From: Bacteroidota bacterium
Lineage (GTDB): Bacteria > Bacteroidota > Ignavibacteria > Ignavibacteriales > Ignavibacteriaceae
DNA length: 5,923 bases
Direction: 5' to 3'
Assembly: GCA_021796135.1 (NCBI GenBank)
Contig: JAJYOQ010000267.1
Coordinates: 1 to 5,923 of the forward strand
Position 1 is the stretch's first letter; each line of letters starts with the position of its first letter. The position numbers and the translations under genes were made by a program. A model generated the notes under the pieces. It ran no database searches, was not told the DNA's origin, and was given only the letters and a program-made list of their open reading frames with translations. This document shows positions 2,366 to 5,923 of this stretch, one piece after another.

Positions 2366-2401
2366 AAAAAAAACCGGCTTCATTTCTGAAGCCGGTTTTT
2401 T
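2366..2401 (-). terminator. Rho-independent terminator of the thrA attenuator
   Basis: A perfect inverted repeat pairs 2368-2381 with 2388-2401 (14 bp with a CCGGCTTC core) around a 6-base loop. Read on the minus strand it is followed by a run of eight T (2373-2366, part of it within the stem). It lies between the leader-peptide stop and the thrA start, with about 30 bases left before the ATG. It therefore sits inside the thrA 5' leader rather than at a gene end, which is the position of an attenuator. The hairpin is symmetrical enough to work in the plus direction too, but no plus-strand gene leads into it. Confidence 0.93.
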
Positions 2402-2430
2402 AATTTTATAACTATATAACCGTGCTTCAG
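2386..2430 (-). promoter_or_regulatory. Antiterminator: alternative pairing that would disrupt the thrA attenuator hairpin
   Basis: In the minus-strand RNA the segment from 2430 to 2418 reads CUGAAGCACGGUU. The start of the terminator hairpin (2397 to 2386) reads AACCGGCUUCAG. They pair over 12 bp with a single bulged A and a 20-base loop, using up the 5' arm of the terminator. The segment begins at the last base of leader codon 26 and includes the UGA stop. A ribosome that finishes the leader would cover it and let the terminator form. A ribosome held at the Thr codons would leave it free. The pairing is seen in the sequence; the switching behaviour is inferred from classical amino-acid attenuators. 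No clear additional partner segment within the leader was found. Confidence 0.8.
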
Positions 2431-2507
2431 CCGCCGTAAATTGTTTTCGGGGTGTGCATTCCGGTAGTAGTGCAGTTGATTAATATATGTTTATTTTTAA
2501 TTTTCAT
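2427..2507 (-). CDS. thrL: Threonine/isoleucine leader peptide of thrA (26 aa)
   Basis: A small open frame from ATG (2507-2505) to TGA (2429-2427). Of its 26 residues, five are Thr (13, 14, 15, 19 and 22) and four are Ile (3, 8, 10 and 23). The centre reads N-C-T-T-T-G-M-H-T-P and the end is I-Y-G-G. Nine of 26 codons for the two end products of the pathway, directly ahead of a terminator and thrA, is the signature of an attenuation leader, whose translation rather than whose product matters. The three consecutive Thr codons are at 2471-2463. A ribosome stalled there would reach to about 2450 and leave the antiterminator at 2430-2418 exposed. The start is preceded by A/T-rich sequence with no Shine-Dalgarno, about 15 bases after the predicted transcript start. 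The symbol is by analogy with E. coli thrL; the sequences are not homologous as far as can be seen. Confidence 0.85.
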   Translation of the reverse strand: MKIKNKHILINCTTTGMHTPKTIYGG

Positions 2508-2527
2508 AATTATATTATAAGCTTAAA

Positions 2528-2559
2528 CAAAAGTAATACTTAATTTTCTGTTTGTCAAA
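2528..2559 (-). promoter_or_regulatory. Promoter of the thrL-thrA transcript (Bacteroidetes type)
   Basis: On the minus strand the -7 element TACTTTTG (2535-2528) matches TAnnTTTG exactly. The -33 element TTTG (2559-2556) lies 20 bases upstream. This is the consensus used by the Bacteroidetes primary sigma factor. Transcription would start near 2521-2523, about 15 bases before the leader ATG. The -33 element directly abuts the stop codon of the upstream hydrolase gene. Confidence 0.75.
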
Positions 2560-3975
2560 TTACTGCTCTAAAATCCAACTTGTTATTAATTCTAAAACTT
2601 TAGGAGATATTGTCTCTGAAATCTTATTATACTCGGACGGTAAACCCGACTTAGCAGGCTGAAATAGATGATTTAATCCTTCGAAGTTAACTATTTTGAC
2701 TTTTTTATTTCCACCGTCTATTAATGCTTTTTTTATTGCTGCAAGATCTTCTTTAGGAGGAACCTGCACATCTTTTGTACCGTCAATCGCAAGTACAGGA
2801 CATTTTATTTTTTCTAATGCTGGGCGAGGATCGTAATTTATGAAGTACCTAAACCATGGACTCAATACAGGTTTTAGCTGCAATAAGAAATTCTCTTTGG
2901 AACCAAGTGCTTGTTTGAATTGCGGACTGGAATTATCATAAAAATCGGATGCAACTTTTTCAAGTCTATGTGCAGTTTGACTGCTGTCTTTTTTTTCTTT
3001 TATAAGATTATAAATTTTTTCATTTAATTTCTTTGTAATTTCTAATGTACTATCATTTTCACCCGCCCCTTTCCCGATTAGGTATGCTTGCTTCAATAAT
3101 ATTTGATCGCACGGGATTCCCGGTGCAGCCATTAGAATAATAAAAGAGATATTCTTCGATTGATTAGCTACCATTGGAGCTATAATTCCGCCTTCACTAT
3201 GACCGATAAGACCGATTTTCCCTACTTCTTTTCTTGTTTTAAGGTAATTAACTGCAGCTGCAGCATCCGATGCTAAGTCTTTAGAAGTAGCGCCTGCATA
3301 ACTTCCTGTAGATTTTCCAACTCCCCTGTCATCATATCTTAAAACCGCTATTCCATGTCTTGTTAAGTAATCAGAAATTACTAGAAATGGTTTATGCCCT
3401 AGAATTTCTTCATTTCGATTATGCGGACCTGAACCGGGGATTAATAGAACTGTTGGAAACTTTTTTCCTTCTTTAGGGTAAGTAAATGTCCCGGAAAGGA
3501 CATCCCCGGCTTTTTTATTTTCAAAAGTTACTTCTTCTTCATTGTAGGGATAAGGTTTCTTCGGTTCCTGAGGTCTTATAATTTCAATATCTTTATTTGT
3601 TTTTACTAGATTAAGAGGAAGATTACTTCCGCCTTGACTCCACATACCGTTAAAGAAACTGCTATCGGCATAGTATCTGCCTGAATATGTTCCTTGAATA
3701 ACCGGCACATCTATCTCAAGCCGGTTTCCGTCAAATGAAACTTTAGAAGTCGGAATATCTTTAGCGCCTTGATCTGGGCTGTCCAATGTAGCGCTATATT
3801 CATCACCAGTCTTTTGAATATGAAAAACAATTCTTAATTGTATTGTAGAAACATTTAAGGTGCCTATCCAATTCCCGGCTATATCTATTTTCTTTTGTAT
3901 ACTCTGAGCGAAAGTAAAACCATTTAATATTGAGCAAGCTATAATACTGATAAAATATAATTTAATTTTTTGCAT
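2560..3975 (-). CDS. Secreted alpha/beta-hydrolase with N-terminal beta-rich domain
   Basis: Probable exported serine hydrolase (esterase or peptidase-like), 471 residues; the natural substrate cannot be told from sequence. Residues 1-24 form a signal peptide (basic start MQKIK, hydrophobic core, A-Q end). Residues about 31-125 form a beta-rich domain often found ahead of this hydrolase type in Bacteroidota (GNWIGTL near 34-40, LDSPDQGAKDIP at 64-75). The hydrolase domain covers about 150-471: oxyanion region PGSGPHNR (180-187), nucleophile elbow GHSEG with S260, acid D402 in DGTKD, and H436 in GLNHLF. All three catalytic residues are present. The ATG at 3975 is chosen because the signal peptide begins there; an in-frame TTG at 4011 adds 12 residues but lies within the predicted promoter. 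The gene is divergent from recQ and heads towards thrA with no terminator in between. Residues 107-114 are encoded by the sequence repeated at the right window edge. Confidence 0.92.
   Translation of the reverse strand: MQKIKLYFISIIACSILNGFTFAQSIQKKIDIAGNWIGTLNVSTIQLRIVFHIQKTGDEYSATLDSPDQGAKDIPTSKVSFDGNRLEIDVPVIQGTYSGRYYADSSFFNGMWSQGGSNLPLNLVKTNKDIEIIRPQEPKKPYPYNEEEVTFENKKAGDVLSGTFTYPKEGKKFPTVLLIPGSGPHNRNEEILGHKPFLVISDYLTRHGIAVLRYDDRGVGKSTGSYAGATSKDLASDAAAAVNYLKTRKEVGKIGLIGHSEGGIIAPMVANQSKNISFIILMAAPGIPCDQILLKQAYLIGKGAGENDSTLEITKKLNEKIYNLIKEKKDSSQTAHRLEKVASDFYDNSSPQFKQALGSKENFLLQLKPVLSPWFRYFINYDPRPALEKIKCPVLAIDGTKDVQVPPKEDLAAIKKALIDGGNKKVKIVNFEGLNHLFQPAKSGLPSEYNKISETISPKVLELITSWILEQ
3633..3657 (-). 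repeat. Inverted 25-bp repeat, copy 1 (inside hydrolase gene)
   Basis: The minus-strand reading of these 25 bases is identical to the last 25 bases of the window (5899-5923). Here it encodes FFNGMWSQ in the beta-rich domain of the hydrolase, where it fits the family well, so this copy appears to be the original. Confidence 0.97.
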
Positions 3976-4008
3976 AATTTTTCTCTTTAATGATTGCACA
4001 TTTACAAA

Positions 4009-4016
4009 CAAAATTA
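4009..4016 (-). promoter_or_regulatory. Promoter -7 element of the hydrolase gene
   Basis: The minus strand reads TAATTTTG, an exact TAnnTTTG match, 33 bases upstream of the ATG at 3975. No exact TTTG is seen at -33; a TTTT lies about 19 bases further upstream. The element overlaps the alternative TTG start at 4011, which argues against that start because it would lie ahead of the transcript. Confidence 0.55.
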
Positions 4017-4057
4017 CCTATAATAATTATCTTTTAAAAATATTAAAAATGAATTGT

Positions 4058-4065
4058 TATCTTTA
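4058..4065 (+). promoter_or_regulatory. Promoter -7 element of recQ
   Basis: TATCTTTA followed by CA resembles the common Bacteroidetes TATCTTTGCA with one mismatch. No clear -33 TTTG is present. Transcription would begin around 4071-4073, ahead of the ATG at 4091 but after the ATG at 4049, which supports the downstream start for recQ. Confidence 0.45.
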
Positions 4066-4090
4066 CATTTTCAATATATATAATTATAAA

Positions 4091-5530
4091 ATGACTTCGC
4101 CAAAAGAAATATTAAAGAAATATTTTGATTATGATTCATTCCGCGGTTTACAGGAAGAAATTATAGACCGAACTGTTAACCGTTTGGGACATAGTTTAGT
4201 GTTAATGCCAACCGGAAGTGGGAAATCATTGTGCTATCAAATTCCGTCTTTAATATTTGAAGGCGGAACAATTGTTATTAGTCCTCTCATTGCTCTTATG
4301 CAGGACCAGGTTGATTCTTTAAAGAAAAAGAATATTCCCGCATCATTTATTAACTCAACAATTTCAAAAAGTCAAAAGGAAGAAAGATTAGATCAATTCC
4401 TATTAAGCAAAATAAAAATTCTGTATGTCACTCCCGAAAGATTTAGAATAAATGATTTTGTTCAGAAAATTAAAAATGCTAATATTTCCCTTCTCGCTGT
4501 CGATGAAGCTCATTGTATTTCGGAATGGGGTCATGATTTCCGTCCCGATTATTCAAGGTTAGGTGATTTTAGAAAATTACTGGGCAATCCATTAACTATT
4601 GCACTTACCGCCACTGCAACTTATAATGTTCAAAAAGATATTATAAATAAATTAAAAATTAACACTGATGAAATCCTCACTTTCCATCAGGGAATCGAAC
4701 GCCCAAATTTACGACTATCTGCTATTGATGTAATTGATGAAAAGGAAAAGCTCAAAGAAATACTTTCTGTGCTTGATAATTATAAAGGATCAGGGATAAT
4801 CTATTTTTCTCTTATTCAGACTCTTGAAAAGTTTTCTCAATTATTAAGAGATAAAGGATATAAGCATAATGTTTATCATGGTAAATTACCCGATAAACAA
4901 AGGAAACTAATGCAAAGAGATTTTATTTCCGATCGTGATTGTTTAATCCTGGCTACAAATGCTTTTGGAATGGGAATAGATAAACCGGATATCCGTTTCG
5001 TTATTCATGCTGAAGTGCCTTCATCAATAGAATCCTATTATCAAGAAATCGGAAGAGCCGGCAGAGACGGTAAAGATTCATTGTGTATGCTTTTATATAG
5101 TCAGCAGGATCTTTATATTCAGATGGATTTTATAAAATGGTCTAACCCTGACGCAAATTTTTATTCTGCGGTATATGACCTTTTAAAAAGAGATATTGAT
5201 AGAGTAAATTCCGATGGAATAGATTTTTTGCGCGAACAAATGAATTTTAAAAACAAAAATGATTTTAGAATTGAAACAGCTCTGGGTATGCTTGATCGTT
5301 ATTCAGTTACAGAAGGATCCCTGGAAAAACATAACCTGAAAATTATAAGTGATTTACCCTTTGAACTTGATAACGAAAATCATCTAAAGGAAAAACTTTT
5401 GAACGATAATAAGAAGTTGCTTTCAGTTGTTAATTATTTTAAAAGTGACAGCTGCAGAAGAGTGTTTATCTCTGATTATTTTGGTTTTAAAAATGAAAAA
5501 CCATGTCATAATTGTGATAATTGCTCCTAA
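4091..5530 (+). CDS. recQ: RecQ-family ATP-dependent DNA helicase, short form with variant C-terminus
   Basis: 3'-to-5' DNA helicase of recombination and repair, 479 residues. Seen motifs: motif 0 FRGLQ (17-21; FRPLQ is more usual), Walker A TGSGKS (41-46, K45), DEAH (138-141) running into the aromatic-rich loop CISEWGHDFRPDY (142-154), ALTATAT (171-177), motif V ATNAFGMGIDKPD (288-300) and motif VI QEIGRAGRDG (318-327, with R322 and R325). A zinc cluster closes the protein: C455, C472, C475 and C478, one residue before the end. There is no winged-helix (RQC) or HRDC domain after the zinc cluster, unlike the 609-residue E. coli RecQ. Instead about 100 residues (350-450) separate motif VI from the first cysteine, longer than in E. 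coli RecQ. The ATG at 4091 is preferred over the in-frame ATG at 4049, because MTSPKEILKKYF is the normal RecQ beginning and the 14 extra residues look like translated A/T-rich leader. The thioredoxin-fold gene follows after 50 bp. Confidence 0.95.
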   Translation: MTSPKEILKKYFDYDSFRGLQEEIIDRTVNRLGHSLVLMPTGSGKSLCYQIPSLIFEGGTIVISPLIALMQDQVDSLKKKNIPASFINSTISKSQKEERLDQFLLSKIKILYVTPERFRINDFVQKIKNANISLLAVDEAHCISEWGHDFRPDYSRLGDFRKLLGNPLTIALTATATYNVQKDIINKLKINTDEILTFHQGIERPNLRLSAIDVIDEKEKLKEILSVLDNYKGSGIIYFSLIQTLEKFSQLLRDKGYKHNVYHGKLPDKQRKLMQRDFISDRDCLILATNAFGMGIDKPDIRFVIHAEVPSSIESYYQEIGRAGRDGKDSLCMLLYSQQDLYIQMDFIKWSNPDANFYSAVYDLLKRDIDRVNSDGIDFLREQMNFKNKNDFRIETALGMLDRYSVTEGSLEKHNLKIISDLPFELDNENHLKEKLLNDNKKLLSVVNYFKSDSCRRVFISDYFGFKNEKPCHNCDNCS

Positions 5531-5580
5531 ATAAATTATTAATTTATTTACTTTAAATAAAATATAAATTTAATTTGGCT

Positions 5581-5923
5581 ATGATAACTATAACTTCCGA
5601 TAAAGAACTTAAAGACTTTATCTCCGAAAATGAAGGGGCAGTTCTGTATTTCAGTACCCCGCAGTGTAATGTCTGCAAAGTTCTTAAGCCAAAATTGATC
5701 GATTTGTTGGATGATAAATTTCCTCAAATGAAATTCTCCTATATTGATTGTGATCAATACAAGGAATTGGCTGCCCAAAATAATGTTTTTGCAGTACCAA
5801 CTATATTGTTTTTTATTAAGGGGAAAGAATTTATTAGGAAATCGAGAAATGTGAGCTTAGATCAGCTAGAAGAAGAAATAACCCGTCCATATTCACTATT
5901 CTTTAACGGTATGTGGAGTCAAG
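5581..5923 (+). CDS. Thioredoxin-fold protein with C-N-V-C active site (open at right edge)
   Basis: Small cytoplasmic thiol-disulfide protein; no signal peptide. The visible 114 residues show YFSTPQCNVCK with the redox pair C29/C32, the central strand YIDCDQY with an extra C57, and the cis-proline motif VFAVPTILFF with P73. The helix at about 92-100 completes one thioredoxin fold, so the natural C-terminus should be near residue 105-110. Classical thioredoxins have CGPC. CNVC lacks the proline, so redox potential and partners may differ, and a general disulfide reductase role is unproven. The gene starts 50 bp after recQ with no convincing promoter or terminator between, so co-transcription is likely. 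The last eight residues (107-114) come from the inverted repeat shared with the hydrolase gene and may not belong to this protein. Confidence 0.88.
   Translation, partial: MITITSDKELKDFISENEGAVLYFSTPQCNVCKVLKPKLIDLLDDKFPQMKFSYIDCDQYKELAAQNNVFAVPTILFFIKGKEFIRKSRNVSLDQLEEEITRPYSLFFNGMWSQ
5899..5923 (+). repeat. Inverted 25-bp repeat, copy 2 (right window edge)
   Basis: These last 25 bases equal the reverse complement of 3633-3657 without mismatch, and the match stops at 5898. It may extend beyond the window. It lies at the end of the thioredoxin-fold frame, past the point where that fold is normally complete. A join created during amplification or assembly is the simplest explanation. Confidence 0.95.

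Follow-up and report, generated by a model that had tools for sequence, protein, structure and literature searches.

The window, that is, the whole stretch of 5,923 nucleotides analysed here (contig JAJYOQ010000267.1 of assembly GCA_021796135.1), carries the thrA gene on the minus strand (2336-3, ATG at 2336), which is cut by the end of the window. Protein matches and Pfam domains (AA_kinase, ACT domains, NAD_binding_3 and Homoserine_dh) identify its product as a fused aspartokinase/homoserine dehydrogenase. The best protein matches are 95, 86 and 85% identical, and their named sources include several Ignavibacteriaceae MAGs. The sequence-only reading of this DNA had spoken of a Bacteroidetes-like genome, which comes close, as several of the nearest named thrA relatives are Ignavibacteriaceae, a family of the phylum Ignavibacteriota in the NCBI taxonomy. 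An alpha/beta hydrolase gene (2560-4011) precedes thrA on the same strand, and two ordinary genes lie on the plus strand, a short RecQ-type helicase gene (4049-5530) and a thioredoxin-like gene (5575-5922).

The region ahead of thrA contains the parts of a putative transcription attenuator, all on the minus strand. Promoter scoring places a -33 element, TTTG of the Bacteroidota type, at 2559-2556 and a -7 element, TACTTTTG, at 2535-2528, which together score 10 of 10 against TTTG-N20-TAnnTTTG, which we take to be the Bacteroidota-type promoter consensus. The leader ORF, identified by reading the frame and by codon tests, runs from an ATG at 2507 to a TGA at 2427 and encodes the 26-residue peptide MKIKNKHILINCTTTGMHTPKTIYGG with 5 Thr and 4 Ile codons, and its presumed sensor codons (Thr 13, 14, 15, 19 and 22, and Met 17) all lie at least five codons ahead of the stop. 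The antiterminator strand CTGAAGCACGGTT (2430-2418) overlaps the leader stop codon and is complementary to AACCGGCTTCAG (2397-2386), the 5' arm of the terminator, which is common to both structures; the two strands were assigned by duplex energy and co-variation. The terminator hairpin (2399-2370, -19.9 kcal/mol), assigned by folding and co-variation, is joined to a tract of 8 U (2373-2366) that overlaps the last hairpin pairs and ends 33 nt before thrA. All the parts that the earlier reading had named, a promoter, a 26-residue leader, an antiterminator segment over the stop and a terminator with a U-tract, are therefore present, and its span of 2366 to 2535 holds from the terminator through the leader to the -7 element, but leaves the TTTG at 2559-2556 outside. 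The 147-nt leader RNA of the window is more stable than its dinucleotide shuffles (z of -4.85 sd, with 0/200 equally stable), and the antiterminator duplex, with 12 pairs, one bulge and an energy of -19.0 kcal/mol, was also matched by none of 200 shuffles.

The upstream regions of thrA in relatives, whose comparison had been proposed together with the attenuator, were drawn from the class and the order to which Stygiobacter electus and the nearest relative (G252) belong, and amount to 85 thrA-like genes (33 with the window included, plus 40, plus 12). The complete element was found in 29 of the 85, the window included, and the promoter, the antiterminator and the terminator hold their positions among these 29. 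At one further locus, L153, whose thrA is 93% identical, the contig edge cuts the element and the terminator is present. The other 55 regions are without the element, two of them being shorter than 100 bases (L103 with 82 and L160 with 92), and nothing similar was seen in L094 (61% identical) or in the Melioribacteraceae and Stygiobacter loci (L081, L082). Leaders were taken from candidate lists ranked by their Thr content, and the start codon was set by eye where several were possible. A promoter score of 9 or 10 of 10 was reached by 21 of the 29 leaders as compared to 270 of 5800 shuffled regions, and the spacer is 20 in 26 of them. At four loci (L096, L099, L101 and L102) the leader ATG lies just 4 nt past the -7 element, and these mRNAs may be leaderless. 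In another branch of the class, Thr-rich ORFs that end in TR-stop precede aspartokinase genes with no visible terminator (L149-L152), and these loci are counted among the 55. The attenuator is thus a conserved sequence element in Ignavibacteria.

Both alternative structures are conserved in the relatives. In 28 of the 29 leaders no more than 4 of 200 shuffles match the antiterminator duplex, the exception being L092, whose antiterminator is weak (16/200), and the mean duplex energy is -18.1 kcal/mol with a leader's own strands, compared to -15.3 kcal/mol when the strands are swapped across species. The co-variation alignment holds 26 leaders; L093, L162 and L108 were omitted because their antiterminator is placed differently relative to the stop, and in these three the pairing is retained although the letters differ. 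A G/A difference occurs at one base of the shared arm, with G in 15 and A in 11 of the 26 aligned sequences; the antiterminator pair at this base is C-G in 14, U-A in 11 and another combination in 1, whereas the terminator pair is G-C in 15, A-U in 5 and mismatched in 6. Since the antiterminator pair is U-A in all 11 A-variants and the terminator pair is kept in only 5 of them, the antiterminator pair is maintained even where the terminator pair is lost. Both structures exceed all 500 shuffles in the number of cells paired, the number of cells with double changes and the covariation score, in a comparison whose shuffles leave kinship in place, and both exceed their slid versions in cells paired and in score. 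Pairs with double changes number two per structure, which is not above the shuffles (241/500 and 324/500 reach two), and the antiterminator slid by -3 has three such pairs against two in register. In the aligned sequences, then, changes in the 5' arm of the terminator are matched by its antiterminator partner and, to some extent, by its terminator partner, so that co-variation supports the conservation of a mutually exclusive antiterminator and intrinsic terminator, as in ribosome-mediated attenuators.

The amino acids that are sensed were assessed on 20 representatives, left after nine near-duplicates had been dropped from the 29 leaders. Their 491 codons include 131 for Thr and 38 for Met, and 1000 dinucleotide shuffles never reach either number. 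Because the leaders came from Thr-sorted lists, there is some circularity in the test for Thr, which does not extend to those for Met and Ile. Both Lys and Ser were likewise above the shuffles, so that the shuffle test alone is not specific, and Cys (11 codons against 10.2) and Ile (29 codons against 33.9 expected) were not enriched in this way. The last 16 codons, the part where a stall would count, give a sharper picture: among the 320 codons of the 20 leaders, Thr accounts for 34.4%, Met for 10.3% (33 codons), Ile for 3.4% (11 codons) and Lys for 1.9%, as compared to 4.7, 1.6, 8.9 and 7.9%, respectively, in the longer proteins at 27 of these loci, thrA included. Binomial values for these frequencies take no account of kinship and carry no weight here. 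For the window by itself, neither count is beyond chance, as 305 of 2000 dinucleotide shuffles of its leader hold at least five Thr codons and 402 of 2000 reach its Ile count, and Thr becomes significant because of the comparison with the relatives. The peptide as such is not conserved, with 33 synonymous and 63 non-synonymous pairwise codon differences among five close leaders. These leaders are therefore short ORFs whose codons match the operon's product, as known from ribosome-mediated attenuators, and their codon usage indicates that Thr codons are the signal and that Met is probably sensed as well. Ile was discarded as a co-signal, being depleted in the last 16 codons and not above the shuffles, which means that the name threonine/isoleucine attenuator used in the earlier reading is half right: Thr stands on the evidence of the relatives, and Met appears to take the place of Ile.

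The arrangement of these parts suggests how the element might operate. RNA polymerase would start at about 2525, followed by a ribosome that translates the 26-codon leader. When charged tRNA-Thr, and probably tRNA-Met, is ample, the ribosome would reach the stop and cover the antiterminator strand at 2430-2418, the terminator would form, and transcription would end at the U tract before thrA. A stall at the Thr or Met codons would leave this strand free to pair with 2397-2386, and transcription would read through into thrA. The start site, the termination, the stalling and the response to Thr or Met are all inferred from this arrangement. The predicted switch was followed in a folding calculation that yields equilibrium values for the pairing before the second terminator arm is made, under the assumption that the ribosome covers 13 bases ahead of its A site. 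For the window, the calculated antiterminator value is 0.91 with the ribosome stalled at any Thr codon or at Met17, 0.00 at the stop and 0.91 without a ribosome. Similarly, with the ribosome at the stop it is 0.00 in 19 of the 20 representatives and 0.08 in L161, and without a ribosome it is at least 0.71 in 18 of them, the others being L161 (0.00) and L092 (0.01). Late Thr codons give low values in L091 (0.18) and L098 (0.14), and L161 ranges from 0.11 to 0.65 throughout. As a control, E. coli thrL gave 0.59 to 1.0 when stalled, 0.0 at the stop and 0.38 without a ribosome. On this purely calculated basis, and with the assumed 13-nt footprint, a ribosome at the stop covers the antiterminator and a ribosome at the sensor codons does not. 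When the full-length RNA is folded, 17 of the 20 representatives favour the terminator, and L093 (0.24), L098 (0.06) and L108 (0.11) do not. The regulatory logic borrowed from enterobacteria hence carries over in that the switch behaves like the E. coli control, but it fails in one element, as 18 of the 20 leaders have no strong protector hairpin in the calculation. With little or no protector hairpin, the model predicts that the state without translation is one of read-through.

The thrA genes behind the element are followed by further genes of the pathway at several of the loci tested with Pfam, namely by asd in L084, by thrB in L096, L217 and L219 (and by the start of one in L108), and by thrC in L092, L098, L099, L159, L217 and L219. 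L217 has the order thrA-asd-thrB-thrC, a pyrroline-5-carboxylate reductase-like gene, a SAM riboswitch, metY, an OsmC-like gene and an alpha/beta hydrolase gene, the last of which may be metX.

The same frame recurs ahead of other genes. A covariance model built from 26 thrA elements only (R1) was run on 164 genomes of the order, where false matches score 41 to 42.5 bits. It recovered, outside its training set, the leaders MSMWMCMMIPLGS and MTLNSAMWMCMIMMFPQGS before metY in G316 (71.8 bits) and G249 (70.6 bits), two close relatives (metY 91% identical) that are counted as one event, and a Thr leader before thrB in G270 (68.4 bits), where thrC was read by eye behind thrB. Weaker matches in fitting places are MNNQVFTYNPMCTTTTMCMLMTTPAMEVNAGL before hom in G270 (44.8 bits) and MKTKISTYNSCCQIICMVCLTCILEVNEGL before cysK in G383 (43.5 bits), both with scores near those of the false matches, and MNYKVLTYSPMCTMMCMAMTTLIPKVISGL before hom in G409 (36.7 bits), which scores below them. 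The codons vary with the gene: the leaders are Met-rich before metY, Thr-rich before thrB, rich in Thr, Met and Cys before hom, and Cys-rich before cysK. The antiterminator duplexes of these copies are matched by at most 3 of 200 shuffles. In NCBIfam, metY and thrB pass the curated cut-offs, and metX, cysK and hom are best matches below them, metX and cysK being truncated in the fetched stretch and hom matching the dehydrogenase half of the fused enzyme.

A second model (R2), made of the R1 set and five of these copies, gave 26 matches of at least 50 bits in 391 genomes of the class, 25 of them leader elements (24 in the training set and a new one in G282) and one an ordinary terminator (G160). 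Its matches in the order (164 genomes) number 28, with 27 in the training set and one being the cut L153, and it misses L108. Nineteen weaker R1 or R2 matches (about 33 to 50 bits; L179-L182, L186, L246 and L249-L261) were opened and none has an amino-acid leader; most are terminators at gene ends, and L182, L249 and L251 are ambiguous cases. Likewise, no Thr leader accompanies the R1 matches that lie shortly ahead of thrA in L015 (26.6 bits) and L002 (23.8 bits). The core stem CCGGCTTC..GAAGCCGG, searched as an exact pattern that misses G-U or other changes, occurs at 0 to 2 places per genome in 10 genomes, and of four places opened outside attenuators three are gene ends and one is coding sequence. 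It is thus too rare in these genomes to be the usual terminator of the group, which favours common descent of the copies over a common type of terminator.

Among the metY loci, of which 30 were fetched and 19 tested with Rfam, 16 carry the SAM riboswitch RF00162, which binds SAM directly. The three without it are L187 and L188, which have a Met leader on the thr frame, and L205. The latter has a Met/Cys leader, MINNKTNMIPVNMCCSMCMMCLSKRERDII, that starts about 316 nt upstream of metY and possesses its own terminator and antiterminator, with letters unrelated to the thr frame, and leaders of this Met/Cys kind have apparently originated on at least two occasions before metY in this group. Met-rich leaders on the thr frame are placed before metY in L175 (2163-2236, minus strand) and L176 (2181-2254, minus strand). 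These findings raise the possibility, to which we give slightly less than even weight, that a single Ignavibacteria frame, consisting of the promoter, the antiterminator over the stop and a CCGGCTTC-like terminator, has been copied to several genes for the synthesis of aspartate-family and sulfur amino acids and retuned through its leader codons, with Thr and Met before thrA, Thr before thrB, Thr, Met and Cys before hom, Met before metY in place of the SAM riboswitch, and Cys before cysK. Under this proposal the untranslated leader would also read through, so that a Met shortage which slows initiation would act like a stall at Met codons. If so, Met sensing would be possible where a three-hairpin attenuator would fail.

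Other explanations of the element have to be weighed against a ribosome-read attenuator. The hairpin could be the ordinary terminator of the alpha/beta hydrolase gene, with the small ORF present by chance. That gene runs in the same direction, with its end about 160 nt ahead of the hairpin, and the Thr content of the window leader alone is not significant, but a conserved promoter lies between the two, and the pairing of the stop-overlapping strand with the terminator arm is kept by co-variation. Moreover, at 27 relative loci the ORF upstream of the element varies in strand, length and distance while the element persists, which excludes the terminator of a fixed upstream gene and makes this explanation hardly credible. 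It could also be assumed that the leader mainly sets thrA translation through coupling or reinitiation and that the hairpin constitutively limits read-through. Reinitiation can be helped by short leader ORFs (PMC4833913); against this, 90 nt and a strong terminator separate the leader stop from the thrA start, and a co-varying antiterminator has no role in such a scheme, which we consider highly improbable.

A closer competitor accepts the attenuator and differs in what it reads, namely Thr and Ile as in enterobacteria, with the Met codons being incidental. The four Ile codons of the window leader speak for it, as do E. coli thrL and the Cytophagales-type leaders described below, all of which combine Thr with Ile. 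However, three of the four Ile codons of the window come before the Thr run, the depletion of Ile in the last 16 codons holds for the 20 representatives, Met occurs within this part in 18 of them, and the same frame carries Met-rich leaders before metY and hom. Reading of Thr and Ile is therefore unlikely, with odds that overlap those of the best explanation. It is very probable, on the sequence evidence gathered here, that a ribosome-read transcription attenuator controls the thr operon.

Leader-peptide attenuation is a textbook mechanism that has been studied mostly in Proteobacteria, and the enterobacterial thr attenuator senses Thr together with Ile. The latter (thrL; Rfam RF00506, Thr_leader) shares with the element in the window a leader with Thr codons, an antiterminator near the stop, an intrinsic terminator and a downstream thrA. 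The window matches RF00506 with 28.0 bits (E 0.038), short of the gathering threshold of 55 bits, and no Rfam family, RF00506 included, reaches its gathering threshold in any of 20 relative loci. The pair of signals is also different, since Ile is depleted and Met enriched in the Ignavibacteria leaders, where Met replaces Ile, the protector hairpin is weak or absent in 18 of 20 (0.38 for E. coli) and the promoter is of another type, as the E. coli type differs from that of Bacteroidota.

Thr-rich leaders before thrA also occur in Cytophagales and Mucilaginibacter, and the Mucilaginibacter locus (L078) has a strong terminator with an antiterminator over the end of the leader, as in the Ignavibacteria element. 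The Cytophagales leaders differ in their TG-stop ending (mostly ITG) and their high Ile content, and no clear terminator was seen by eye. In 22 leaders of this type, one of them from Mucilaginibacter, taken from 80 wider Bacteroidota loci, the last 16 codons hold 35.2% Thr, 16.8% Ile and 4.8% Met. Thr/Ile leaders with an ITG-stop lie within 350 nt of thrA in L001, L005, L006, L008, L030, L037, L073, L075 and others, and many of these Cytophagales-type loci have a conserved ACGGGGT(G/A)A.CCCGT-like motif across the stop. An intrinsic terminator is not clearly visible by eye at such loci, and Rho or translational control is possible. Up to an E value of 1, R1 has no match at the Cytophagales leaders and has weak matches elsewhere in L005, L006 and L008.

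Further parallels come from other groups. The uORFC-8-2 motif before cysS (PMC8632094) and the cys leaders of Mycobacterium (PMC1262725) use Cys codons as the signal, like L178 before cysK, but they belong to other groups and have other RNA structures, and the mycobacterial leaders are without terminators according to their authors (PMC1262725). The SAM riboswitch RF00162 has the same target, metY, in the same order, in which L187, L188 and L205 have leaders instead. Leader attenuation of amino acid operons is suggested in Flavobacterium psychrophilum (PMC9723704), short ORFs are reported in Bacteroides leaders (PMC7366714), a Bacteroid-trp motif is listed (PMC2864571), and a survey from 2010 states that, up to its own discovery of leader peptides in Firmicutes, only Proteobacteria and Actinobacteria were known to have them (PMC2965389). 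A Xanthomonas met operon is described as controlled by its 5' region, mainly at the level of translation, with attenuation suggested as a possible part and with no use of the word leader (PMC6230763). The kind of mechanism is thus known, and none of the open-access papers surveyed here describes a thr leader in Ignavibacteria, a Met-codon attenuator or one frame reused ahead of several genes.

To conclude, the parts, their conservation, their co-variation and the codon enrichment define a family of leaders in Ignavibacteria, and gene callers are likely to miss ORFs as short as these. A conserved family, together with a recurring frame whose sensor codons vary, would allow the change of specificity in a regulatory RNA to be studied as a natural experiment. 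Furthermore, a leader that senses Met would pose a well-defined question, because a shortage of Met also affects initiation. In the operons of uncultured Ignavibacteria, the amino acid signals could be assigned from sequence alone.
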